22,380 nucleotides of DNA, from positions 1 to 22,380 of IMG/VR virus record IMGVR_UViG_3300032087_001599; one strand, given 5' to 3'. The notes under the pieces are model-generated. The model was not told the DNA's origin. It ran no database searches and was given only the letters and a program-made list of their open reading frames with translations. Each line of letters begins with the position of its first letter. The first letter of the stretch is position 1. The DNA comes from a virus. Of the stretch, positions 9,032 through 22,380 are shown in pieces. Both the position numbers and the translations under genes were made by a program.

Positions 9032-9194
9032 CTGGAAGAAGTTTAAGCCGGGATACTCCTTCTTTATTCCATGCCTGAACGCCAAAGACGCAACCAAAGA
9101 TATACGTGCAGAAGTAAAACGCTTTAAGTACAAAGTGATTACTAAAGTAACTATAGAGGATGGGGTGCGAGGCGTTCGGGTATGGAGAGTTTAA
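9000..9194 (+). CDS. Small phage protein of unknown function
   Basis: A 64-aa basic protein starting inside the primase gene. It has a WKKFKPGYSFFIPCLNAKDA segment, then a basic helix (IRAEVKRFKYKV) and a beta-like ending IEDGVRGVRVWRV. The pattern of a short strand pair, helix and strand, with IEDGxRGxRVWR at the end, is one I recall from small proteins in marine phage replication regions; no function is known to me. Purine-rich GAAGAGAAAG upstream could serve as the ribosome binding site. Its stop TAA shares two bases with the stop of the convergent giant gene, so this is the last gene of the left arm. Confidence 0.72.
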   Translation: MKIEKVEYQINWKKFKPGYSFFIPCLNAKDATKDIRAEVKRFKYKVITKVTIEDGVRGVRVWRV

Positions 9195-12100
9195 TTTCTT
9201 TTTGGCTGCAAGCTAGGATCGAGTAACGGGAAGATATACTCCTCAAGGTTTGGTGGCACATTATAACCTTGTACAGAACTACCACGCCTATCTGCTCTGG
9301 TGTCTATAGATTTATCTAAAGTCTCATCTGTTAATTCTATCCACGGATATTCAGTATTAAACTGCTGTATTTCTTTATAGACTTCATCTATCCGTTTATA
9401 GGCGTTATCAGAGTAATCTGACTCTTGTAGGTTTCTTACAGCCCTATCAAGGTCTTCTAACAGTTCCTGCCTACGCCTTGTTGCAGTTACTTCTGCATCT
9501 TTTATTAAAAAGTTTCGGTCTTGTATTTGTGCTACCTCTGTATTGCCAAACCCAAGAGCTTCACCTAACAACCTATTAGCAGTATAAAACTCAGCAGGTT
9601 TTACGGGGTTACCACCTCGTGTTATTAAACCTTCCCTGTTTAATCTTATAGCTTCTACAGGATTTCTAAAAAAGGCAGGTAATAAGTTTTCAAAGCCTCG
9701 CTGGTACTCTCCGTTTTGAAAATCTTCATAAGCTCGGGCGGCATTTCTTGCTAAACTACCAAACGGCCCCAGCGCGGTGTTGTAAGTAAAGTTAACAAAA
9801 GCCGATTCTAAATCATCCTCACGAGAATCATCTCTAAACCAAAGGCCATCTAGTTTAGTTGAAGCACCTACGTTGCCATTCGTAAGAGCTGATATAGGGC
9901 CAAGTTCTACACCTCTAGCAAGAACATTCGCAGCTTCCTCACTAAGTCCAAGAGCAGCAGCAAGGTCACTGTCAGGGCCAAATGTTCTAGGTATCCACAC
10001 AGCTCGGAACCACAGCTCTGTGTTCATGCTCGGGTGCAGAGGGCTAAGAGGATCACCGTACCAAAATTCTTTTTCGTCTTCATCCGCATCTTCATAATCC
10101 GGACGTAAGGCAGCAATAATTCCGTCTATGACACCCATCATCAAAGAAAAGTTTAGTATGCCAGTAGCTCCAGCAAACATAAAAGTCATGCCCATAGTGC
10201 CGGTAAACTGAACCATCCCCTCTCTTCGCTCCGCAATCAGTTCCTTACGTCTTTGCGTTGCTTCAGCTCTCAGTTCTGTTTCGCCTCTCTGGTCGTCTAA
10301 TTGCCGAGCAGCGTTTATATAACTTAGGGCATACTCTTGTTCACTTGGGATGCTTTTTATAAAACCCTCATACATATTTCTATATATGTAGGAAGTCATC
10401 ATTAAAGAAAAACTCATAAATTGAGTAGCAACTCGACCAGCCGCACTCGATTTCATAAAAGTAGGTTTGTTGTAGTTTGTATAGTTAAACAAACCCTCAT
10501 AAGTCAGTTCTACTGCTCTCTCTTGAGCTTCTCTTTGTGCTGCTTCATTAGACAAACCTTTTTTCTTGGCTTCGTTGTAGGCTAACTCAAAAGAAGACAT
10601 ATACATTATTTCACGGTTTATTCTTTCTGTGTGGTGAAATAAGCCACCCATCATCCCAGCTATGCCTCTAAATACTTTGGATGTAGGGCTTGCGTACCTT
10701 TTTGAAGACAGTTGACCTCTTGAAGTCATATCAGCAGCATAAGTAGACATAAATAAATCTCTTTCAGCCGCATAATTCCACGCTCTTTCCAAAGATGCTT
10801 TTTTCTCGGGGTCAGGTTCGTCTTGTATATAACTACTACTTAGTATGTTAGGCATAGCCCACTCTACTTGTATATTTCCATCTTCGTCTGTATACGTTCT
10901 TTTAATACCTAACTTTGGCCTACCAAGAACTCCAACCCCAAGAATACCCGTAGCGTACCTTGTTGCTACACCCATAGTAGCGCCTAAACCATACTTCGCC
11001 GCCAGTATAGGTAAACCCACAATGGGAAGTTGCGTGAGTTGTATAATTGCAGACTTAGGAGCTGATAAAAGCCAATAAAATACAAACTTGTTGCCTAAAC
11101 GTGCAAAGTTATCCCAATAGCCTGTTTGAGAATTTGGGTTCGATTCTTCTAAAGCTCTTCTACGTAACTCATCTAAGTATATTTTCGCATCATCTGCATC
11201 AGGTCTTCCGACTAATTCCGCATAGCTCGCTGCTACAGCATTTCGTAATTCACCCGAATATTTTAGTCTCGCAAGTTGGTTAGCACTGGTTGTTTGAGAA
11301 ACAATAAAGTTACGTAGCGCATCTGTATTAAAACCTGCTACACCCTTTCGGTGGGCAAACCGCTTTCGTATGTCTGATTCTGGCAACGTCATCAAGTACA
11401 TCTGATAAACTTGGTCTTTGATAACGTCTATGTCTGCCACGGCAGCGCCATCTAGCAAATCAAATACACCCTTTAAAAGTTGACTAGATTCAGTTATGTC
11501 CTTATTTACCAAGCCATCTTCAAGATTGTTTCCAATACTAATGTCTTGGTCTGCTTTTGCTTGATCCAAGCCTTTGTTAAGTTGCTCTCTAGCTATTTTT
11601 TCAGCAAAGGTGTCTCTAGCTAATTCTGATTCAAAAAGATAAAACTGCCTGTCTTGCCCGCTTCCTACACGTAGGTAGTAATGCCCGTACCGCATTAACG
11701 GAAAGTAAACTTCTAGCTTCTTAGCTTCTTGAAACCCTGAAACGATACTTGCTAGCAGTGTCTTTTTCTTATCTTCAGGTAATGTTGACGCCTCTATCTT
11801 TTCAAGTAAGAGATTTTGATGCTCTTGGAAAGTTTTTTGATAGGCTTCTTTTGCAGTTTTATATATCTCAACACCCTGCTGCCCACCGTTAGCCTCTTCC
11901 TGCAAACGACTCCATCCACCAAACAAAGTGCCGTCTATCTCAGTACCGTTCCATACTTCTTTAATTTCGTTTTCTCTCCTAGTGACGGCTGCTTTAGCAG
12001 CGTTAACTGCACCGGGAGTTAGATTTGGATTTTGTAGTGCTGCTTGCCTAGCTTTGCGGAGTTCTTTTATCTGAGCGTCGTTCTGTAAAGCGTCGTTTAA

Positions 12101-15100
12101 CGTAGCGTGCTTAGAAGGATCGAAGTTAAGTAGCGTAGCCATGTGCATGACATCTGCAAGGATAGCGGCGCCTTCTTGAAACTTATGATTGAATTTGTCC
12201 CAGAAAGGAATTTTTTGTGCTAAGTCTTTTATTCTGTTTGCACGCATAACGCCCATCTTAACAACCGCTTGGTTTACTTTCTTGACGTTACCTACGTACA
12301 TACTTTCCAGCAGACGTGAAAGCCCCGTTGTAGTAAATATCTGGGACATGATGCGTTTCTGCTTACGGCTTAACGTATTTTTCAACGCCTTCAGCAGATC
12401 AATAGCTTCTGTTTCTCCTCTAAAAGAAGCTGCTGCAAGTTCAGCCATATTCTGAGCAAAGTCAGACGCACTTCTGCTACGAGCTAGTTTTTTAGCAGTA
12501 CGTGTTACTTTCTTTTTTCTAGCTCTTGCTTGGTTTATAGAAGAAGTTGAGGGTCTCTTAGAAACTTCTAACTGAAGTAGCAATCTGTCCGTCAAGTCCA
12601 TCAAGGAGGTAAAGCCATTTAGTGCTTGTTCTCCTTTGAACCCAAACAGTTTAGCAATACTGTTTATAAATTTAGTTAAACCGTTTTCAATGAAGTTTTT
12701 CTTTGCAACATAGATGGCCTCTACCCCAGCAAGAAACTCCTGCATCTCGGGTTGAGTTATGCCATAAGCTAAAAATTCTTTAATATCTGTAAGGACATTT
12801 ACTTCTTCTACTAGGTATTCAATGTCTTCACTTACGCGCCCCAACGCCTTTTCTTCTGCATAGTGTTGTGCAGCCGCGTCCATTTGCGCTTGTAACTCAA
12901 GCATGAGTTCTTCGATCTGCTCTTCAGCCATGCCGGGGACATCACGGTCAGACAACCATGTGTCTACAATATCTACTGTAGCGGCGTGAACAGCTTCATG
13001 TAATAGCGTAGTGTTATCGGTGCCGTCTAGTGCTAGGTAAATAGTATTAAACTCACTAGCGTACACACCCCGTGGGTTAGTAAGAAACTCTCCTTGTATT
13101 TTAGCAGGCAGTGCACGGGTATCACGCACCACAACCAGATTGATGTTTTCAAGGAAAGGTCTAAGGCGGCGTATTAAAAGTTTTTCAAACGCATTACCAG
13201 TTTGCAGAATGGAATCCAACGCAGCTTTTAGTGTTATGCCTTCTTCTTGAAGAACTGGATTTGGCTCGGTGTTAGTAGAGTCCAGAAGAGGCATCGACTT
13301 GGCGACTGTGCCCTGCGTTTTCTCTCGCTCTAAAGCCTCTCTTGCTCTTGCCCGATCTGCATCAGTAACATCAGCCCTGTTTAAAAGTTTCTCTGCACGC
13401 TGCCATACTGCTTCTTTCTCTTTGCCAGTGGCAGGTTTTCTATCTTTATATCTGGGGTCTTCTAATATTTTAAGCGCGTTTACTAACGATTCTTGACGCG
13501 TTGCTTGGGAGTTTGTTTGTTCTGTTCGTAGAGCATCTTCTACTCTGTTTATTCTTTTAGTTTTTGCGTTAAATTGCTTAAGTTGAGCAGGAGTTATTAA
13601 TTCTGCTGTTTGTAATTCTTTTAAGTCAGCTACTTCTTTCTTTAAATTTAAATACTCTTCACGAGTGATTTTTGCTCTTTTGAAAGCAGCGTCTTCGTAG
13701 TTAGCGTCCCATGCTTTTTCACCACGATCCATAGCACGCTTGTTATTTACGCTAACTCTCTTAGTCTCTTTTCGCGCTTCTTCCGCAAATTTTATTTGCT
13801 CTTCGGTTTTGGCTATAGTTGGGCGACCACGTTTTCCCTTTGGCCCAAGGCCAGTTTCCGGGTTAGTTTGTACCTTTCCAGTGTTTTTTAACACCTCTGT
13901 AGATTCAGGCAAACCGTCTTCTGTTACTGCGGCCTCTAGTTCTGTGTTGTCACCTATAACTTCTTCTGTAGCAGTGCTAATCGCTTCACCGACTGACTGA
14001 CCTTTTTCTACTTTTACAGCAGCTTCATCTATAACTTGGCCTGCTGTTTCGGGAGAAAGGTCGTTTTGTATTTCTTTTACTATAGCCGAGTCTGTATCTT
14101 TTACTTCGCTTTCAACAGCGTCCGCTGCATCTTGCTTTGTCTCTACAATAACAGGTGCAGCGTTAAGTCTTTTTACTTCGATATCAAAAAGTTGACCTGC
14201 TGCTGGGCCATATGTTTCCTCAACGTAGCTCTTATATTGCGATACTTCGTTATCTCCTAGAGATTCTTTGACGACCATCTCTGCAACTTGCGTAACTTCC
14301 GTTTTTGTTTCTTCAGGAATTTCTAAAGTCTGTGCTTCATCAGGAGCTGGCTCTAACACATTTCCTGTTGCAACGTCGTCTATAGCCCTATCGAATGCCT
14401 CTTGCTCAGTAAGATTCGCATCTTCTGACATGTATTGAGCAACGCGTTCTTCAATTAGTTGTGCTGTATCTCCTGCGTTAGCTCTTGCTCTTTCTGCTAC
14501 AAGCTGCTTTGAAATCTCTTCCTCAGTTTTACGGATAGTCCTATTAGTAAGAGCTTGGCTTCCGGCGGCTGTTGCGGTATTTATAGCCGTACCTGAAATA
14601 CTTCCGACCGCTTCTGCCGCTGCTGCATCCAAGACACGGGTGATATTTTCTTTAGAAAGAACATCACCAACTTGCTCTCCAGTAGCACGTTGACCTGCTA
14701 TTTGTGCGATTTCTTGAGCACCACCTGTTAGACCTTCTTCCAGTATCTCTCTAGGTGCTTGTTGAAATGCTTCTTTAGCTGCTTCTCCGGCTGTTCTTTC
14801 TAATACTTCCCCACTAATTTCTTTCGTTAGCTGTCTTTTAAGGATTGAACCAACTGGGCCAGCTAAATCGAGCGCACCCGACACTATAGCTACCATAGTA
14901 TTGGTATCGTTTGTTTTGTATAGATACTCTGCTATGGCCGTAGCTTGGTCTTCAGGAGGGAGGTCTTGTACAACTTGTTGGATATAAGCAAGACGATTTT
15001 CTATGGTTTCAGCACCAGCCAAAGTAGTGCCCACAGTGAGCGCACCTGTTGGCCCAGCTACAGCGCCAGCCGCCATTACGGGTGCAAGCTGCACACCACC

Positions 15101-15787
15101 TGCTACTACGTTATACGCAAGCCAATCCCTAGCGTCTGCAAGCGTTTTGATTACACCTCGCTCTGGAAGACCTGTAACTGTCTCCACGATACTTCCTACG
15201 CGCGGTGCAAATTGCTCTGCTTCTTCGCTTCTGCGTTGTATTTCAGGTAATGTTTTTAAGAAGTCTTCCCGTGCTTCTTCTACAGCGCCCGTTGTCTGTT
15301 CTCTGATATTTGCACGCTTGGCCTGATCTGCTTTTTGGTAGTTTATGAATTGCCCAAGTTCTACTGGCCCAAAAGTTTTTTCTTTAGCGTTTGCAGCTTC
15401 GTAAAGCTCGCGGGGATCAGCACCTTCATCTATGGCTTTATAGATGTCTAGTATTTCGTTTTGTTTTTGTACAGTAAATGCATCGAACGCTAAATCAACA
15501 CGTTCTGGTGCACTAGCAAGAGAGGCAGTTGAGCCTTTGTATGCCTTGTAGCCTTCCGTAATTAAGCTACTTAATATTCCAGTGGTGCCTGACGTTTCAG
15601 GTGCAGGGGGTTCGGGTGTAGGCAGCTCTTCCTCTGGTACAGCCGCTTGTGCTAGCACAGGTATACCACCAAACTGAGACTGAGGTTGAGTCTCTTCTGC
15701 TAGCACAGGTACACCACCAAACTGAGACGCTGGTTGTGGCGGATTCGTCTCTTCTTCTACGGGTATACCGCCAAACTTAGAAGGCAT
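9191..15787 (-). CDS. Giant virion/ejection-type protein with zincin-like HEXXH motif and PLxRFG-like domain
   Basis: A 2198-aa protein. Visible parts in order: three S(K/Q)FGG(I/V)PV repeats and a Pro/Glu linker (residues 3-62); Ala/Gly-rich segments that may insert in membranes (about 225-400); an acidic then basic helical region with GKRGRP (653-656 RGRP); a zincin-like domain with LLHEAVHAAT (His930, Glu931, His934) and a downstream Glu1004 in KEFLAYG as likely third ligand; a basic Arg/Lys region (about 1095-1120); FPLMRYGHYYLRV (1362-1374), matching the PLxRFG-type phage domain; long helices; and hydrophobic stretches near 1568-1620 and 1862-1892. Such proteins are usually packaged in the virion and ejected with DNA, like T7 gp15/gp16 or polyvalent proteins. 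The ATG overlaps the upstream TAA (TAATG) and follows AGGAAG. Protease activity is predicted from motif only. Confidence 0.85.
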   Translation of the reverse strand: MPSKFGGIPVEEETNPPQPASQFGGVPVLAEETQPQSQFGGIPVLAQAAVPEEELPTPEPPAPETSGTTGILSSLITEGYKAYKGSTASLASAPERVDLAFDAFTVQKQNEILDIYKAIDEGADPRELYEAANAKEKTFGPVELGQFINYQKADQAKRANIREQTTGAVEEAREDFLKTLPEIQRRSEEAEQFAPRVGSIVETVTGLPERGVIKTLADARDWLAYNVVAGGVQLAPVMAAGAVAGPTGALTVGTTLAGAETIENRLAYIQQVVQDLPPEDQATAIAEYLYKTNDTNTMVAIVSGALDLAGPVGSILKRQLTKEISGEVLERTAGEAAKEAFQQAPREILEEGLTGGAQEIAQIAGQRATGEQVGDVLSKENITRVLDAAAAEAVGSISGTAINTATAAGSQALTNRTIRKTEEEISKQLVAERARANAGDTAQLIEERVAQYMSEDANLTEQEAFDRAIDDVATGNVLEPAPDEAQTLEIPEETKTEVTQVAEMVVKESLGDNEVSQYKSYVEETYGPAAGQLFDIEVKRLNAAPVIVETKQDAADAVESEVKDTDSAIVKEIQNDLSPETAGQVIDEAAVKVEKGQSVGEAISTATEEVIGDNTELEAAVTEDGLPESTEVLKNTGKVQTNPETGLGPKGKRGRPTIAKTEEQIKFAEEARKETKRVSVNNKRAMDRGEKAWDANYEDAAFKRAKITREEYLNLKKEVADLKELQTAELITPAQLKQFNAKTKRINRVEDALRTEQTNSQATRQESLVNALKILEDPRYKDRKPATGKEKEAVWQRAEKLLNRADVTDADRARAREALEREKTQGTVAKSMPLLDSTNTEPNPVLQEEGITLKAALDSILQTGNAFEKLLIRRLRPFLENINLVVVRDTRALPAKIQGEFLTNPRGVYASEFNTIYLALDGTDNTTLLHEAVHAATVDIVDTWLSDRDVPGMAEEQIEELMLELQAQMDAAAQHYAEEKALGRVSEDIEYLVEEVNVLTDIKEFLAYGITQPEMQEFLAGVEAIYVAKKNFIENGLTKFINSIAKLFGFKGEQALNGFTSLMDLTDRLLLQLEVSKRPSTSSINQARARKKKVTRTAKKLARSRSASDFAQNMAELAAASFRGETEAIDLLKALKNTLSRKQKRIMSQIFTTTGLSRLLESMYVGNVKKVNQAVVKMGVMRANRIKDLAQKIPFWDKFNHKFQEGAAILADVMHMATLLNFDPSKHATLNDALQNDAQIKELRKARQAALQNPNLTPGAVNAAKAAVTRRENEIKEVWNGTEIDGTLFGGWSRLQEEANGGQQGVEIYKTAKEAYQKTFQEHQNLLLEKIEASTLPEDKKKTLLASIVSGFQEAKKLEVYFPLMRYGHYYLRVGSGQDRQFYLFESELARDTFAEKIAREQLNKGLDQAKADQDISIGNNLEDGLVNKDITESSQLLKGVFDLLDGAAVADIDVIKDQVYQMYLMTLPESDIRKRFAHRKGVAGFNTDALRNFIVSQTTSANQLARLKYSGELRNAVAASYAELVGRPDADDAKIYLDELRRRALEESNPNSQTGYWDNFARLGNKFVFYWLLSAPKSAIIQLTQLPIVGLPILAAKYGLGATMGVATRYATGILGVGVLGRPKLGIKRTYTDEDGNIQVEWAMPNILSSSYIQDEPDPEKKASLERAWNYAAERDLFMSTYAADMTSRGQLSSKRYASPTSKVFRGIAGMMGGLFHHTERINREIMYMSSFELAYNEAKKKGLSNEAAQREAQERAVELTYEGLFNYTNYNKPTFMKSSAAGRVATQFMSFSLMMTSYIYRNMYEGFIKSIPSEQEYALSYINAARQLDDQRGETELRAEATQRRKELIAERREGMVQFTGTMGMTFMFAGATGILNFSLMMGVIDGIIAALRPDYEDADEDEKEFWYGDPLSPLHPSMNTELWFRAVWIPRTFGPDSDLAAALGLSEEAANVLARGVELGPISALTNGNVGASTKLDGLWFRDDSREDDLESAFVNFTYNTALGPFGSLARNAARAYEDFQNGEYQRGFENLLPAFFRNPVEAIRLNREGLITRGGNPVKPAEFYTANRLLGEALGFGNTEVAQIQDRNFLIKDAEVTATRRRQELLEDLDRAVRNLQESDYSDNAYKRIDEVYKEIQQFNTEYPWIELTDETLDKSIDTRADRRGSSVQGYNVPPNLEEYIFPLLDPSLQPKRN
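15651..15728 (-). repeat. Direct repeats coding for SQFGG(I/V)PVLA units
   Basis: Two 30-base copies (15651-15680 and 15699-15728) differ at one base and lie 48 bases apart. They encode the second and third SQFGG(I/V)PVLA units at the N-terminus of the giant protein. A third, diverged unit (SKFGGIPVEEE) is encoded at about 15755-15781, directly after the start codon. Confidence 0.85.
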
Positions 15788-17646
15788 TAGGGCTTCCTAT
15801 ACGTCACGCCGTCTTCTATGTATTCAGCTCCAGAAGGCAACGCATCAAACTGCTCTTGGGTAGTAATTATTGGTAAATTGTTATTACTACCGCCAGTTTG
15901 TTGCCCAACGTCGGGCGCCCCACGTTGATACATGTCAACTAAATTTTGCCTATATCTCAACTGCTGGTCGGGAGTCATCTCGGCATAAGCACGGCCTTCA
16001 GGTGAAAGTCTACCCATACCAGAAGTAAGCCTATCAATTTCTGCGGTAGCAAAATCTTGAGCACTATCGTATAGCGCCATTCTCGCCGTTAATTCTCGCC
16101 CGGAAAGACTATATTGTGAGGGAAAAGACTTGTAAGATTCCACAGCTTCTACTCTGATTTGTGCATCAGTGCGTGGATCACCAGCATCTCTCGCCGCTTG
16201 CAAATAGTCTTCTACGTATTCGCTTTCGTTTGTTGGCTGCCTGTTTCTCGCTGCGTATTTTTCAGCAACTGCTAGCTGTATGTCCTGACCTCTACGCGTT
16301 GTTTCAGACTGACGCAGTTGTTGAGTTATAGACTGTGCGGTGCTTAGACCCTGCCTTATGTCATTCTGTACTTGCGCTTGTACCGTTCTTTCAGCTTCAG
16401 CCCGACTCATGCCACGAGCTTCTAAGCTATCCACAACCTTCTGGTAGTCCGCTACGCTAGTCTGTGCAATGCCTACGCGCTCAGCTTGTATAGCTGCTTC
16501 TTCTTCTCCAATGCGTCTTGAGGCACCACCGAGACCTTCTGACATACCTCGGAAAGTAGCTCGTCTCATACGCCTTCTTTCTTGCTCAGGTGTCAAGCGT
16601 GCGCCCATAGCCTCACGGAGCGCATCCTGTGCTTGCTGGAGCTGTGCTCTCTCTTCTGTCAGTGCAGTAAGTTCTTCAACGCGCTCACCTGCTGCTCTGC
16701 CTTCTGCGCCTGCATCTCGACGTAACTGCTTCAATGCTTCGTCTAGCACGAGCTGTTCTACATCAGTAGCCCCTTCTTGGGGTCTGGGCGGCATAGCTTG
16801 ACCGGTATAAAAGGCTTCCATCTGCTCTGGAGTAGCATCAGCAGGAAGACTACTTACCATACTGCCATCTGGGCCAGCGAAACGCTTTATAGGCTTACCG
16901 TCCTTACCTTTGCCTCCGGGTTTATTAACTTTAGGTGTGAGATTTAATTCAACTTCTGGATCAAACCCAGCGTCTCTGGTCGCTTGCTGCATCGCTTCAG
17001 CTTTGAGATTAGGATTATTGGCCTCCATCAAGTCCATTTCACTTTTTACGTTTGCTGCTGAGACCATATCTCCTTCGGCTTTGTACTTCCTAAACTGCTC
17101 GTCTAGTTGTATATACTGCTCTATCTCCGGGTCTCCACCCGCTGCAAAGCCTACAACGCCGCCTTGTGCAGCCATCTGGGGGCGTGCCATGTTGGGTGCA
17201 GGTATACCGGCAATACCGCCCATAGGAGGTCTTTGCATCTGTTGTGGTGCAGGTCTTTGTGGCATTTGCCCTTGCATCTGAGGCATTACCTGTGCAGGAG
17301 GCATTCTTCCCGCCATAGCAGCTTGTCTGCCACGCTGCTGCATACCACCCCTAAGACTTCTCAACATATCTACAAGGCCGCCCTGCATTGGCTGAGGGCG
17401 TAACCGTTGCTCGACTTCTTGACGCATTCTAGGCACCACTTGAGGGGGCTGCTGTGGTTGTCCTTTTTGCATCGCTAGTTGGGCATCGGCTGCCGCAAGG
17501 ATGTTTTTGGCACGCTGTACTTCAGTCGCATACTCTGTTTCAGGAGGTAAATTAGCCCCTTCCAGCGACATACTGGCTATACCCATAGCAGCATCAGCGC
17601 GTTCTTGTTGCTGTCCTTGTGGCATTAAAGCTTGTAGACCGTTCAT
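15787..17646 (-). CDS. Probable structural/ejection protein, Q/P/M-rich N-terminus and coiled-coil body
   Basis: A 619-aa protein without a recognised enzymatic motif. Residues about 60-165 are low complexity, rich in Gln, Pro, Met and Arg (QMQRPPMGGIAGIPAPNMAR). Then comes AAQGGVVGFAAGGDPEIEQY, a glycine-rich motif of a kind I recall in marine phage virion proteins. Residues about 295-460 are strongly helical (ELTALTEERAQLQQAQDALR) and the C-terminus ends in EQFDALPSGAEYIEDGVTYR, a short beta-rich tail motif seen on many phage structural proteins. Its place between a 351-aa helical protein and the giant ejection-type protein suggests an internal virion or tail-assembly role. AAGGT lies upstream of the ATG; the stop shares TAATG with the next gene. 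Role is inference from context. Confidence 0.75.
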   Translation of the reverse strand: MNGLQALMPQGQQQERADAAMGIASMSLEGANLPPETEYATEVQRAKNILAAADAQLAMQKGQPQQPPQVVPRMRQEVEQRLRPQPMQGGLVDMLRSLRGGMQQRGRQAAMAGRMPPAQVMPQMQGQMPQRPAPQQMQRPPMGGIAGIPAPNMARPQMAAQGGVVGFAAGGDPEIEQYIQLDEQFRKYKAEGDMVSAANVKSEMDLMEANNPNLKAEAMQQATRDAGFDPEVELNLTPKVNKPGGKGKDGKPIKRFAGPDGSMVSSLPADATPEQMEAFYTGQAMPPRPQEGATDVEQLVLDEALKQLRRDAGAEGRAAGERVEELTALTEERAQLQQAQDALREAMGARLTPEQERRRMRRATFRGMSEGLGGASRRIGEEEAAIQAERVGIAQTSVADYQKVVDSLEARGMSRAEAERTVQAQVQNDIRQGLSTAQSITQQLRQSETTRRGQDIQLAVAEKYAARNRQPTNESEYVEDYLQAARDAGDPRTDAQIRVEAVESYKSFPSQYSLSGRELTARMALYDSAQDFATAEIDRLTSGMGRLSPEGRAYAEMTPDQQLRYRQNLVDMYQRGAPDVGQQTGGSNNNLPIITTQEQFDALPSGAEYIEDGVTYRKP

Positions 17647-17655
17647 AGTTTTACC

Positions 17656-18711
17656 TTACCCTTTAGGTAGCTGTCCTGTACGTAAATATTCTTTAAAGTC
17701 TTCTGGTGTTATATATCCAACAGCGTACAAATCATACATAGCGTTAATTGTTTCTGCGGTCATTCCCGCAGGCAATCCAGCGGTCGTTCCTTCAGGCAGT
17801 GCGCTACTAGGAGTTGCGGTGGTTCCACCCGTTCCACCTGTTATCAGGTCATAGATGTCCGTAATGTCACCCAACCCAGCACCAAGGAGACTCAGGCCAG
17901 AAGGCTCGAAGTAAGTATAAGTCTGAGTTTCCAGCGGCAATCCCTGTAATAAAGACTGCATATACTGTACTTGCTTATACGGGTAGTCTCGTTCTTCTCT
18001 AAACTGTGCTATATCCGCACCAATACCCGCCTGTTCTATAGCACGTTGTTCTGCACCGGCCTGTCGTTGTGCAGCTAGGGCTTCTAAACCGTATTGACGT
18101 TCTTGCCCAAACAAGTCAGCCGCTTGTTGATAAGCTTGTTGGTAACCTTGACCGGTTATGTCTGCCAGCCTGTCCAAAGTACCTCTAGCTAGTTCAGCTT
18201 CAGCTACAGCTTGCCTAGAACCGCCGTATGCTCCAGCCTTACCATACCGACTTTGTAGTTCTTGTTGTGCTATCTGTGCTTGGCGCATAGCTGCGTCGTA
18301 CTGAGGCTGTAAGGCAGCCTGTAGATACGGGTTCATATACGCTTGTACTGGACTAGCACCTGCCCCTGCAAAGGGCTGTGGTGTCTCACCAGCCGTGATC
18401 TGTTCGGGGGTAAGCGGCTGATAGGCGGCACCTGTAAAAGACCCTGCTGCGGTAGCACCCGGTAATGCGAGAGAGCCTAGACCACCAAAAGCCTGTTGCT
18501 GCAAAGCAGATGGGCCAGCAGTTAGCGGGCCTTGGTAGGCCGTATACGGCATAGAAGCAAGAGCTTGTCCTCTGCCTAGCATCTCCGTCACATAAGGGCC
18601 AGCCCACGAAGACAGCGCAGATTCTTCCCCACGCTGTAAATTTACGGGGGTAGTTGACGTAGTAGATGCAGTATCTGTAGTTGCTGTACCGCCGGTTTGA
18701 TAATAGTTCAT
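17656..18711 (-). CDS. Probable internal virion or tail-associated helical protein
   Basis: A 351-aa protein. The Ser/Thr-rich N-terminus (TASTTSTTPVNLQRG) leads into a Gly/Ala/Pro region, then AYMNPYLQAALQPQYDAAMR and QSRYGKAGAYGGSRQAVAEA, followed by repeated Gln/Ala-rich helices (GYQQAYQQAADLFGQERQYG). The RxGKAGAYGGSRQAxxEA pattern followed by QQA helices is one I recall in phage proteins annotated as internal virion, DNA-transfer or tail proteins. The C-terminus has GLSLLGAGLGDITDIYD and ends shortly after EDFKEYLRTGQLPKG. No enzyme motif is visible. GAGG lies about six bases before the ATG. The gene starts 7 bases after the previous stop. An ejection-protein role is inferred from the helical makeup and position next to other such proteins. 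Confidence 0.75.
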   Translation of the reverse strand: MNYYQTGGTATTDTASTTSTTPVNLQRGEESALSSWAGPYVTEMLGRGQALASMPYTAYQGPLTAGPSALQQQAFGGLGSLALPGATAAGSFTGAAYQPLTPEQITAGETPQPFAGAGASPVQAYMNPYLQAALQPQYDAAMRQAQIAQQELQSRYGKAGAYGGSRQAVAEAELARGTLDRLADITGQGYQQAYQQAADLFGQERQYGLEALAAQRQAGAEQRAIEQAGIGADIAQFREERDYPYKQVQYMQSLLQGLPLETQTYTYFEPSGLSLLGAGLGDITDIYDLITGGTGGTTATPSSALPEGTTAGLPAGMTAETINAMYDLYAVGYITPEDFKEYLRTGQLPKG

Positions 18712-18718
18712 GCTAACC

Positions 18719-20161
18719 TCACGCTGGCATCATGCGAGTAGGGTTGATTTCTGGGCCTTGCTTAGTAGTCCCGGTGCGTTCTCGGCGTACCCTATCCATC
18801 ATTGAATATAGTTGTTGTGCTCCTGCATCAGAGTTGCCATTGCCTAAATGACTTACTACATCAGCAGGTACTACAAATTCACCGTCGCTTAATGCTGCTG
18901 GTTGTACTCCGTCTATGGTTGCGGGAACCATGTCAGCCATCCCGTCAGTAGGGCCACCTAGGTAGTAACCCTTACCTAAAGAAGCTAAACCACCCGCAGC
19001 CATACCCTCACCGTCTCTAGCATTCATGACTCTACGTCTTGCTTCTTTCATAGCTTCTAAGTTAGGCAGGAAATCAGGATTTTCTTTGTTAAACTGTCGT
19101 CTTTCTAACGGAGAATCTGGAGCTTCACGTCGTGACGTAGCTAAATTAAGATAAAGTCTTTTAGCTTCATCCTCTGATATTTTTCCTGAGTCTATCTGGT
19201 TTTGGAGCATTCTTTCATACATAGCTAGAGCACGCATTGACTCGGAACTCATTGGCCCCGCATCAATCAAAGACCCTACTACGTATTTAGCATAGTCTTT
19301 AAAAAACTCACCGGCAGTTCTTGTACTTTTTTCACGTCTAGTTTTTTCTAGTCGTTCTATCTCACGTAGAAACTCATCGCTGGCAGGGCTTTCTGGCCCG
19401 GTAGGGTCAGACTGAGTTAATCTTCTAAAGTCCCCACCTCTATGGATACGTCCCATTTCATCAAATAGCGTGTAAGGATTAAGTGCTGACCCTTCTGGGT
19501 ACGACGCATCGGGTACATCATACGAAATGCTTTGCCCCGGTCTTGGCACAGAACCACCGGGCGAATACAAAGAAGCTAAACCGCCTCCGGCTAAACTGGG
19601 AAAACCCTCTGTGTAATCCTCACGCTCTGGGCTATTACCTACACCTGTGCCAAGCGTGCCAAATACACGGTTTATATAAGCTTGGTTACGAGCTTGGTTA
19701 TCCAAAGGCAGGTCTGAAGCAGTACCGCTGGGGCCATCATTATTTTGCGCTATTGGCGCAGCGCCTTCAGTTGTTGTTTTAGGCTGGTAAGCGCCTTGTG
19801 TGAAATAGTAACGTCCACCACTGCCCGGTCTGCGGGGCATTACAGTAGGTAAACCGCCTTCTTCTGTCGCAGGTCGTGTATAAGTTTGTGCAAACGCTTC
19901 AGGTAATACTTCACGCTTGTACTCATATTGAGGTATTCCACCTGTATATCCAGTAGGTTGAGGAGTGCTTGTGCCAAAGAAATCACTTAACGTAGAGGAA
20001 TCGTCAGCTCGGCTAATTCCATAAGCGCCCAGTGCAGTGATTATATTTTGGTAGTTTATTTCTCCGGTATCAGGGTTATAAAAAAGCCCCAATAGCCCAG
20101 AAGCTACATCACCTACTCCCCCTGCTATATTACCTGCTAAGTTTCTCAACCATTCTGGCAT
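18719..20161 (-). CDS. Phage structural-type protein with glycine-rich motifs and GEFVVPADVV C-terminal module
   Basis: A 480-aa protein. The N-terminus (MPEWLRNLAGNIAGGVGDVA) is followed by a linker rich in Gly, Tyr, Pro and Thr. Glycine patches LAGGGLASLYSPGG and MAAGGLASLGKGYYLGG flank a helical segment (about residues 235-370). The C-terminal 90 residues read GGPTDGMADMVPATIDG, then LSDGEFVVPADVVSHLGNGN and AQQLYSMMDRVRRERTG. I recall this module from virion proteins of many marine phages; the LSxGEFVV phrase also recalls the end of tape-measure proteins. Its function is not known to me. AGAGGG precedes the ATG, and the previous stop lies two bases away. It sits in the structural block, so a tail or neck role is the best guess. 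Confidence 0.75.
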   Translation of the reverse strand: MPEWLRNLAGNIAGGVGDVASGLLGLFYNPDTGEINYQNIITALGAYGISRADDSSTLSDFFGTSTPQPTGYTGGIPQYEYKREVLPEAFAQTYTRPATEEGGLPTVMPRRPGSGGRYYFTQGAYQPKTTTEGAAPIAQNNDGPSGTASDLPLDNQARNQAYINRVFGTLGTGVGNSPEREDYTEGFPSLAGGGLASLYSPGGSVPRPGQSISYDVPDASYPEGSALNPYTLFDEMGRIHRGGDFRRLTQSDPTGPESPASDEFLREIERLEKTRREKSTRTAGEFFKDYAKYVVGSLIDAGPMSSESMRALAMYERMLQNQIDSGKISEDEAKRLYLNLATSRREAPDSPLERRQFNKENPDFLPNLEAMKEARRRVMNARDGEGMAAGGLASLGKGYYLGGPTDGMADMVPATIDGVQPAALSDGEFVVPADVVSHLGNGNSDAGAQQLYSMMDRVRRERTGTTKQGPEINPTRMMPA

Positions 20162-20163
20162 TT

Positions 20164-22095
20164 TTAACGCCCTCTCAATAAATCTTCTACTTCACGTAGT
20201 AAATCATAATTGTCTATTTTACCGCCACTTGCAGCTTGAATAGTAGGGGCAAATATGCTTTCCCCACCAATATCGTAGAGGTATTCAATGTTAGCAAGCT
20301 CACCCGGCTCTACACGTACCATACGTCCACTTCCTGTAGGTAACGCTCCGCCTGTGGCCGGTGTGGGAGCGCATATTTCGGGGTTTAACAACGCATACGC
20401 TATGTTATTGCAAGGGTCAGTATCTACCCCACACTTCTCTGGGTTTGCTGCTGCATAGTCTGCATCTAAGCACGGGTCAGTTTTTGTACCGCACTCCACC
20501 GGATTCTCTGCTGCATATGCTGGATTTAAACAGGGGTCTTCGGGAGGTGGTGGTGCGCCTTCATAACAGAAACTCTGTACAGTTTGCCCCGTAGGCACTG
20601 CTCTGCCGGGCTTATCACTATTCGGCGGGCACTCGATAATACGGACTGTTCCGCATATTTCTGGGTTTTCAGCAGCATATGCTGGGTTTAGGCAAGGATC
20701 AGTGGGTGGAGTACCACCACAAAGCACTGGGTTTTCAGCAGCATACGCTGGATTTAGACAAGGATCAGTGGGTGGAGTACCACACTCTACCGGATTTTCA
20801 GCAGCATACGCTGGATTTAGACAAGGATCAGTGGGTGGAGTACCACACTCTACCGGATTTTCAGCAGCATACGCTGGATCGTCACAGGGGTCAGGTGGGG
20901 GTGGTGGTTGGCCTCCACACTGTGCAGGGTTTGCCGCTGCGTAATCGGGGTCATCGCAAGGATCAGGTTTTGGCCCCATATCGCCACATTGTATGGGGTT
21001 TGCAGCCTTATACTCGGGGTCAAGGCATGGGTCATCAACAGTGATTTCACCAGTGCCTGTTGTGTCCCCGCATATATCGGGGTTTGCAGCGGCGTATATT
21101 GCGTTATCACAAAGGTCATCTGTAGTAACGGTGCTCTTCTTGTCACCACATTCCTCAAGACTATCTACTTCAGCACCAGCGTTTTCGTATTCTGCTGGGC
21201 AAATTACTTTTTCCGCTTTTTTGGTACCAGTACCAGACTTAGGTATACAACTGAAAGTAGCGCGGTCGTAGGTTTCGTCATCTCCACAAGTTTGTGAGAG
21301 CACAAAATGTATTGCTTCAATACCTGTTACACCAACTTGCGTTTCTACAACATCAGCACCCGTACCACCAGTAAGCACTAAGTCTCCTTCTTCACTGCCT
21401 GTTGTGGGTGTTGCCGTGCTTCCACCGGGGATATTAGAAGTCCCCATCGGTGGCGATCCAGTTCTTTGGGTAGTGCTACTGCCTTTTGGTTCAAATGTAA
21501 TTGATGCCCCTTTTTCACCAAAAACAGCATCGCCTCTGTAGTCGCCCAGCCCTATATAGTCAAGCCCTTTGTCGATATATTCAGCGGCTTTGTTCATTGC
21601 CCCTTCAAGGACATCTCCTAGTATCGGGACATCTGTTACGCCGGGTATGCGTTGATTCAGCACTGGGGCTACTATTTCAGTAGGAGAGAGACCTAGCAGC
21701 ATTCCCTCGGCCATAGCGTCTTCCAGCGCCTCCGTAGCGCCTTCAGTGCCACCCTCTGTACCCATAGCTTCGACGACTTGCATCGCCTTAGTGTCTATCT
21801 TTTGGAGGGCATCTTGCTCGGGGGTGGTTTCTTCAGCGACCATGCCGCTGCCATCAAAAAAACCCAGTAGGTCTGCAACAGAGTAAGCTAATGCAAGCGG
21901 GCCGAGACCCTGCATTAAAGTCCCTAACCCGAATTTAGCGGCACCTGCTTTCGCTGCTTCTTCTGCTGCTTTTTGTGCTGCAATTTGAGCGGGGTGTTTA
22001 CCTACCAAAGAAGTCAACCCGCCACCGGGGCCAACAGCAACAGCCCCACCGTACGTTGGGTCTCTGCCTAATATCTCTGCTACGTAATCACTCAT
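20164..22095 (-). CDS. Structural-type protein with ten CX12C DPCxxPxYAAxNP repeats
   Basis: A 643-aa protein starting MSDYVAEILGRDPTYGG. A longer frame upstream begins at a TTG and would run into the previous gene, so I use the ATG at 22095, seven bases after the previous stop. Residues 25-75 are Ala/Gly-rich with a hydrophobic helix (GTLMQGLGPLALAYSVADLL). Residues about 326-577 hold ten units of the form DPCLNPAYAAENPVECG, each with two cysteines 12 residues apart, separated by short PPT or PPPPP linkers. One earlier pair (CGDDETYDRATFSC, also CX12C) precedes them. The C-terminus is SGRMVRVEPGELANIEYLYD. No signal peptide is seen. The repeats could form a disulfide-bonded or metal-binding stalk on the virion. 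I do not recognise a named family. Confidence 0.8.
   Translation of the reverse strand: MSDYVAEILGRDPTYGGAVAVGPGGGLTSLVGKHPAQIAAQKAAEEAAKAGAAKFGLGTLMQGLGPLALAYSVADLLGFFDGSGMVAEETTPEQDALQKIDTKAMQVVEAMGTEGGTEGATEALEDAMAEGMLLGLSPTEIVAPVLNQRIPGVTDVPILGDVLEGAMNKAAEYIDKGLDYIGLGDYRGDAVFGEKGASITFEPKGSSTTQRTGSPPMGTSNIPGGSTATPTTGSEEGDLVLTGGTGADVVETQVGVTGIEAIHFVLSQTCGDDETYDRATFSCIPKSGTGTKKAEKVICPAEYENAGAEVDSLEECGDKKSTVTTDDLCDNAIYAAANPDICGDTTGTGEITVDDPCLDPEYKAANPIQCGDMGPKPDPCDDPDYAAANPAQCGGQPPPPPDPCDDPAYAAENPVECGTPPTDPCLNPAYAAENPVECGTPPTDPCLNPAYAAENPVLCGGTPPTDPCLNPAYAAENPEICGTVRIIECPPNSDKPGRAVPTGQTVQSFCYEGAPPPPEDPCLNPAYAAENPVECGTKTDPCLDADYAAANPEKCGVDTDPCNNIAYALLNPEICAPTPATGGALPTGSGRMVRVEPGELANIEYLYDIGGESIFAPTIQAASGGKIDNYDLLREVEDLLRGR
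20661..20880 (-). repeat. 63-bp tandem repeats within the CX12C gene
   Basis: The 63-base units at 20732-20794 and 20795-20857 are identical over their full length, and a further 22 identical bases follow at 20858-20879. A diverged copy lies 66 bases to the left, from about 20666, with one extra codon. They encode consecutive DPCLNPAYAAENPVECGTPPT-like units. The identity at third positions points to recent duplication by slippage or unequal recombination. Confidence 0.9.
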
Positions 22096-22102
22096 CTCTA
22101 AC

Positions 22103-22380
22103 CTACGGAGGTGTCGGTAGTGTCTCAGGCAATGTTGAGACAAAAGTTGCTGTTAGAATAGCAGAGGGTTCGCCGGGGTGAGGTGCCGCCGCAGCCTCAG
22201 TATCCAGCCTTGTATTTATGTCGTCAGCTGACCACATCATCTCTATGTACTGCCCTGCCTGTAAGTCAATATTAAAAGCCCACGCAATATCATTACTGTC
22301 GTTGGAGCCTTGTAAAACCAAATGTCTGGCCGAATAGCCTATATCCGTGCCGTTTCGCCTGATCCATACATACACGTTCT
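22103..22380 (-). CDS. Probable virion/fibre protein, C-terminal part (partial at right edge)
   Basis: The frame stays open to the right edge, so the start lies outside; about 92 residues are visible. The sequence reads NVYVWIRRNGTDIGYSARHL, then QGSNDSNDIAWAFNIDLQAG, QYIEMMWSADD and SAILTATFVS before the stop. Alternating hydrophobic residues and W-x-R-x-NG ... GQYIEMMWS suggest a beta-sandwich, of a kind I recall at the C-terminus of marine phage fibre or decoration proteins and reminiscent of C1q/TNF-like folds. The next gene's ATG is seven bases downstream, consistent with one late transcript. A GTG near the edge (22375) is unlikely to be the true start because the domain begins upstream. 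Function is inferred. Confidence 0.7.
   Translation of the reverse strand, partial: NVYVWIRRNGTDIGYSARHLVLQGSNDSNDIAWAFNIDLQAGQYIEMMWSADDINTRLDTEAAAAPHPGEPSAILTATFVSTLPETLPTPP

Follow-up and report, generated by a model that had tools for sequence, protein, structure and literature searches.

The window, a 22,380-base viral fragment, encodes on its minus strand a 643-residue protein, here called the slot protein, in which ten C-x12-C units follow one another in tandem. The reading that we favour, with a probability of about 0.62, is that this is a protein of a podovirus tail/ejection module whose variable linker would act as a string of disulfide-stapled beads, oxidising after it has left the reducing cytoplasm. 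The slot protein, its parts and the neighbouring genes are located as follows.

22103..22378 (-): upstream 217-aa-type protein, end only; tail-needle-like, with a coiled coil and a weak BclA_C-like knob; no Cys within the window
20164..22095 (-): slot protein with C-x12-C array; ORF, 643 aa, 26 Cys
21301..22095 (-): N-terminal part, residues 1-265; Cys-free, variable, helix predicted at low confidence
21247..21288 (-): extra Cys pair 270/283, CGDDETYDRATFSC
21148..21201 (-): extra Cys pair 299/316
21070..21111 (-): unit 1, CDNAIYAAANPDIC
20986..21027 (-): unit 2, CLDPEYKAANPIQC
20917..20958 (-): unit 3, CDDPDYAAANPAQC
20845..20886 (-): unit 4, CDDPAYAAENPVEC
20782..20823 (-): unit 5, CLNPAYAAENPVEC
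20719..20760 (-): unit 6, CLNPAYAAENPVLC
20653..20694 (-): unit 7, CLNPAYAAENPEIC
20566..20631 (-): extra Cys pair 489/510, between units 7 and 8
20491..20532 (-): unit 8, CLNPAYAAENPVEC
20431..20472 (-): unit 9, CLDADYAAANPEKC
20371..20412 (-): unit 10, CNNIAYALLNPEIC
20167..20349 (-): conserved C-terminal module, PGELANIEYLYDIGGESIF...GGKI...LLRGR, common to Cys-free sister proteins
18719..20161 (-): protein with the GEFVIPADVV motif, 0 Cys; in L140, L141 and L149 it forms a single chain with the slot protein
17656..18711 (-): ejection-type protein (phrog_4287), 0 Cys
15787..17646 (-): 619-aa virion-module protein, 0 Cys
9191..15787 (-): 2198-aa polyvalent/internal protein (LPD39 and DarB-like profiles), 0 Cys

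The ORF opens with the ATG at 22095, 7 nt past the stop of the upstream gene, and closes with the stop at 20164. Exactly ten units with a cysteine spacing of 12 extend from Cys 329/342 through Cys 562/575 (nt 21111-20371), with a single break at residues 482-519. The C-x12-C pattern occurs 12 times in the protein, whereas 2000 shuffled versions contained it 1.0 times on average and never more than 5 times. The ten units reported by the first-pass annotation are borne out. The consensus given there, DPC-x2-P-x-YAA-x-NP-x2-CG, is exact in six of the ten units and fails in unit 1 (DLCDNAIYAAANPDICG), unit 2 (YKA), unit 9 (DA for xP) and unit 10 (DPCNNIAYALLNPEICA), and its total of 20 cysteines has to be corrected to 26, as three pairs lying outside the array (270/283, 299/316 and 489/510) had been overlooked. 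Between the units of the window pS is 0.79 and pN 0.21 (pN/pS 0.26), and the ratio is similar in the relatives L001, L042 and L044 (range 0.26-0.31). The codons have diverged mostly at silent sites, which places the unit residues under purifying selection; the units of the window are more than recent DNA duplicates. Units 4-7 are recent copies (TRF: period 63, 3.3 copies, 92%), recent tandem copies being present in L042 as well, and the number of units differs between phages, with 10 in the window, 12 in L001 (its slot protein is 78% identical to that of the window over the alignment) and 13 in L042.

The genomic surroundings point to a structural role. Relatives fall into two main contexts. 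In lineage 1, to which the window belongs, the gene order is nozzle, 217-aa needle-like protein, slot protein, GEFVIPADVV protein, ejection protein and large proteins; in lineage 2 the slot protein is followed by the tail protein phrog_10775 and the nozzle-type phrog_5107/3287, and on one contig (L059) it lies near portal and terminase-like genes. The upstream nozzle is recognised in L001 and its family by phrog_3287 and by PDB nozzle matches (8zkk and relatives). A podovirus tail/ejection module is indicated by this adjacent nozzle gene in L001 and, in the window, by the phrog_4287 ejection gene two positions downstream. Judging from its gene position, from the three fusions in which it forms one polypeptide with the GEFVIP protein, and from the profile matches of its neighbours, the slot protein is probably a virion component; the phage structural region assumed from the outset is supported by these virion-module neighbours. 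Not one cysteine is found among the 3739 residues of the flanking virion-module proteins (2198, 619, 351 and 480 aa, plus 91 aa of the needle-like protein). The 2198-aa Cys-free product of 9191-15787 is itself probably an ejected polyvalent protein, given its LPD39 and DarB-like profile matches. Separately, the motif xxGG[IVLR]xxL together with a LSDGEFVIPADVVS-type domain recurs in neighbouring virion-module proteins (window 18719-20161, L089-L094) and also in pelagiphages.

The most informative property of the family is the parity of its cysteines. All 52 complete motif-bearing relatives have an even number, the chance match L018 having been left out of this set. An independent set of lineage-2 slot proteins, picked by the nozzle gene alone in order to avoid motif bias, yielded even numbers in 34 of 35 members, the sole odd one being a 127-aa remnant ORF, and includes several Cys-rich proteins without any YAA unit. 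Taken together, the 63 complete Cys-rich relatives, which form 55 clusters at 90% and 38 at 50% identity, are even without exception (18-118 Cys), compared with 43 even and 46 odd clusters among control ORFs of the same contigs. At the level of the unit, 163 distinct YA..NP units were compared: in 159 the two cysteines are separated by 12 residues, and in the remaining four there are still two, one of them displaced, so that no half-unit with a single cysteine exists among them. The totals of the 63 proteins leave a remainder of 0 modulo 4 in 33 cases and of 2 in 30, and the cysteines therefore come in pairs, not tetrads. An even number of cysteines is a recognised hallmark of extracytoplasmic proteins that are exported and disulfide-bonded (PMC7678975). 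Read from the sequences, uniformly even totals and the lack of half-units are the predicted signature of disulfide pairs, though even counts could alternatively come from the copying of whole modules with another paired chemistry. In relatives, some neighbouring units are separated by only about 1 residue and others by extended poly-Pro or (PE)n stretches, and some units stand alone, which makes pairing within the unit the simplest reading.

Several further observations concern the variety of these proteins. The complete 1677-aa family protein of L132 holds 118 cysteines, again an even number. Other relatives mix modules of two to four cysteines (CPxGTVxxxxGxC, CGPCKxGYVxxxxxxRC, CNDCTCAEYAAANPEEC), and in L085, L061, L062 and L088 long (PE)n stretches between isolated C-x12-C units recall the TonB linker, a weak low-complexity match of (PE)n and poly-Pro spacers that implies no homology.

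According to a hydropathy heuristic, there is no hydrophobic N-terminal segment in the slot protein of the window, in agreement with the earlier remark that no signal peptide is visible, nor in any of the complete relatives. Since a signal peptide is lacking, export would proceed through lysis or ejection. A search of 30 contigs revealed no thioredoxin or DsbA encoded by the phages, and oxidation would consequently have to be spontaneous or host-made.

The array behaves as an exchangeable part. When lineage-1 sister phages were gathered with the nozzle as bait, their slot proteins proved to be mostly Cys-free and to keep the C-terminal module (PGELxxIDYLYDIGGESIF ... GGxI ... LLRG). A C-terminal profile derived from Cys-rich members recovered seven Cys-free or Cys-poor slot proteins at E-values of 1e-7 to 1e-20, reversed controls reaching 0.1 or higher. 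The 32-Cys protein of L042 aligns with the Cys-free protein of L144 at both ends (328 N-terminal residues, 48% identical; 71 C-terminal residues, 55% identical), and their middles differ. Because the slot protein of related phages has a Cys-free middle, the array looks like an exchangeable linker part, suited to a task beyond the host cell. In other sisters this place is taken by DRVSLPEAQVPV repeats (L139), RDIIGGSVGSDDYAIETKA repeats (L142), VVGDTVVDDT repeats (L149), GTGTT repeats (L145 and L175) or a second cysteine module, CPPGMVRNAEGVC (L148); that the short tandem repeats differ among L139, L142, L145, L149 and L175 suggests that the middle is a hotspot of repeat birth and exchange. In lineage 2, slot proteins contain either 0-2 or 18-80 cysteines, with none between, and the Cys-free and Cys-rich forms are homologous at both the N-terminus and the C-terminus.

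The C-x12-C module matches no described family. Searches of the array against Pfam, PHROGs, NCBIfam, PDB sequences, Foldseek PDB and BFVD gave no match, and the best Pfam line, thrombospondin type 1 (TSR, PF18487), scored 13.9 bits, below the cut-off of 25. Profile, PDB-sequence and fold searches were thus all negative for a known named repeat family, the kind of hit that the first-pass annotation had said would count against its proposal. The likeness to thrombospondin type 3 repeats that it mentioned is confined to the letters C...NP...: the cysteine spacing differs, the units lack the Asp-rich DxDxDG calcium loops, and there is no Pfam, PDB or fold match. A likeness to ShK toxins (C..NP.YM) was likewise dropped, as there was no profile match. 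Among isolate phages, tblastn returned nothing for the window protein, for two relatives or for an 80-aa tandem query, a result in which the low-complexity filter may hide matches, and the isolates that have the tail genes in common (DSL-LC04, CRP-901, MinM2, HTVC023P, HTVC027P and 023Pt) carry no Cys-rich protein at the slot position. A degenerate DNA pattern for C-x4-YAA-x-NP-x2-CG was used to scan viral contigs and bacterial and archaeal genomes. It matched 83 viral contig stretches, many of them multi-copy, and only four sites in 257 Gb of bacterial and archaeal genomes, all single-copy and none tandem, which ties the unit strongly to viruses. The L018 and L010 matches were set aside as chance; those of L096 and L098 are probably chance too, since each consists of one YAAANP C-x12-C unit, lying in a predicted lipoprotein that seems to come from an actinobacterium.

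Modelling of several units by AlphaFold, as the first-pass annotation had proposed, was carried out on four. With an alignment of the tandem stretches, AlphaFold2 gave all four units an identical short helix (pLDDT 75); the pTM of 0.32 means that no fixed arrangement or orientation between units is predicted. The model of the full-length slot protein was poor (pLDDT 42), too poor for a fold search.

The model that interconnects these features is that the slot protein would be a minor virion protein in the tail-tip/ejection module of a short-tailed phage, encoded between nozzle and needle-like genes and ejection proteins, with a conserved C-terminal module and a more variable N-terminal part joined by a hypervariable linker. 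Here the linker would consist of ten 14-residue C-x12-C beads on a string with Pro/Thr-rich spacers between them, each module forming a short helix (x-PAYAAE-NP) whose flanking cysteines could close one intra-unit disulfide. The protein would be made and packaged in the cytoplasm with reduced cysteines, and the disulfides would form in an oxidising place, either open water after lysis or the periplasm if the protein is ejected. Oxidation might then make the flexible chain compact, stable and resistant to proteases, so that it would serve as a spacer with a length set by the number of units.

Of the three options that the first-pass annotation had left for the cysteines, oxidation after lysis is the one best supported by the strict pairing seen throughout the family. 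A variant of the same chemistry, unlikely in our view, would place the event in the host: the protein would be stored reduced in the capsid, threaded unfolded through the tail and have its units closed by host DsbA, serving as a folding ratchet or as part of a trans-envelope channel. It draws on the location of the slot gene directly upstream of the genes for the phrog_4287 ejection-type protein and the polyvalent 2198-aa protein, on the GEFVIP fusion in sisters, on the ease with which small units on flexible spacers could thread, and on the fact that ejection proteins exit via a narrow channel and then refold (review PMC8954989). Set against it, sister proteins manage without cysteines, and an exposed position would be just as compatible with the (PE)n and poly-Pro linkers seen in relatives.

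The remaining alternatives fare worse. Short disulfide loops are good binding scaffolds, and a varying number of units (10 in the window, 12 and 13 in relatives) would suit an adhesin of the host surface or the particle that binds a receptor or environmental ligand with avidity through repeat number; such an adhesin is nevertheless improbable, and the host-ligand binding once suggested loses ground, as the units are conserved instead of diversified (pN/pS 0.26-0.31), sister phages replace the array with low-complexity Cys-free repeats, and tail-fibre-type genes are located elsewhere in related isolates. Metal binding, for instance of zinc or iron-sulfur, is very improbable: even counts are compatible with CxxC-type sites and a four-Cys variant, CxxCxC...C, is present in relatives, but each unit offers two cysteines and no conserved His, single isolated units exist, totals are as often 2 as 0 modulo 4, and no known metal-binding family is matched. 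Least credible of all is a neutral low-complexity filler that expands via replication slippage and whose cysteines have no function; the recent tandem copies in the window and L042 and the hypervariable middle would suit it, but strict cysteine pairing over 38 divergent clusters and a pN/pS of about 0.26 are not what it predicts.

The disulfide-stapled linker can be compared with known systems. The P22-type podovirus tail, with its nozzle gp10, needle gp26 and ejection proteins, resembles the present module in gene order (nozzle, needle-like, slot, ejection); a sequence match between the P22-type tail module and the slot protein was not found and, to our knowledge, no P22 protein matches it. 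In the Agrobacterium phages Milano and 7-7-1, virion proteins made in the cytoplasm have nearly all of their cysteines in disulfides, and reduction lowers the stability of Milano particles (PMC10491603, PMC12796354). In Milano, a myophage, these bonds tie capsid, neck, collar and sheath subunits together, whereas the cysteines of the window cluster within one linker protein, in its tandem 14-residue modules. In crAss001, disulfides are found in tail-hub and ring proteins (PMC10172136), which likewise places them in the tail region of a short-tailed phage; in the window they are predicted from sequence, and the crAss001 bonds differ in being isolated and inter-subunit, with no repeat module.

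The cytoplasm in which phage virions are assembled is reducing, and only a few descriptions of disulfide-rich virion proteins were found, namely those of the Milano group and crAss001. What differs here is a tandem module confined to one exchangeable linker beside virion-module proteins that are otherwise Cys-free. Tentatively, and at odds well short of even, a virus-restricted, shared kit of small disulfide modules may have been swapped into virion-protein linkers of at least two distinct tail backbones of environmental podoviruses, as a redox-armed part that would be soft in the cell and stay open until it has left the cytoplasm, closing in water or, as the genome is delivered, in the periplasm, that is, a redox-timed step of virion maturation or ejection. 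The C-x12-C module could serve as a small, linkable disulfide scaffold, and the parity and slot-swap tests are reusable for finding similar parts. In whole lineages of uncultivated podoviruses a single virion-module protein carries between 18 and 118 cysteines, without exception an even total, where close relatives have none or two; this contrast makes a case, open to testing, that oxidation following release or in the course of ejection is a step of the virus cycle.
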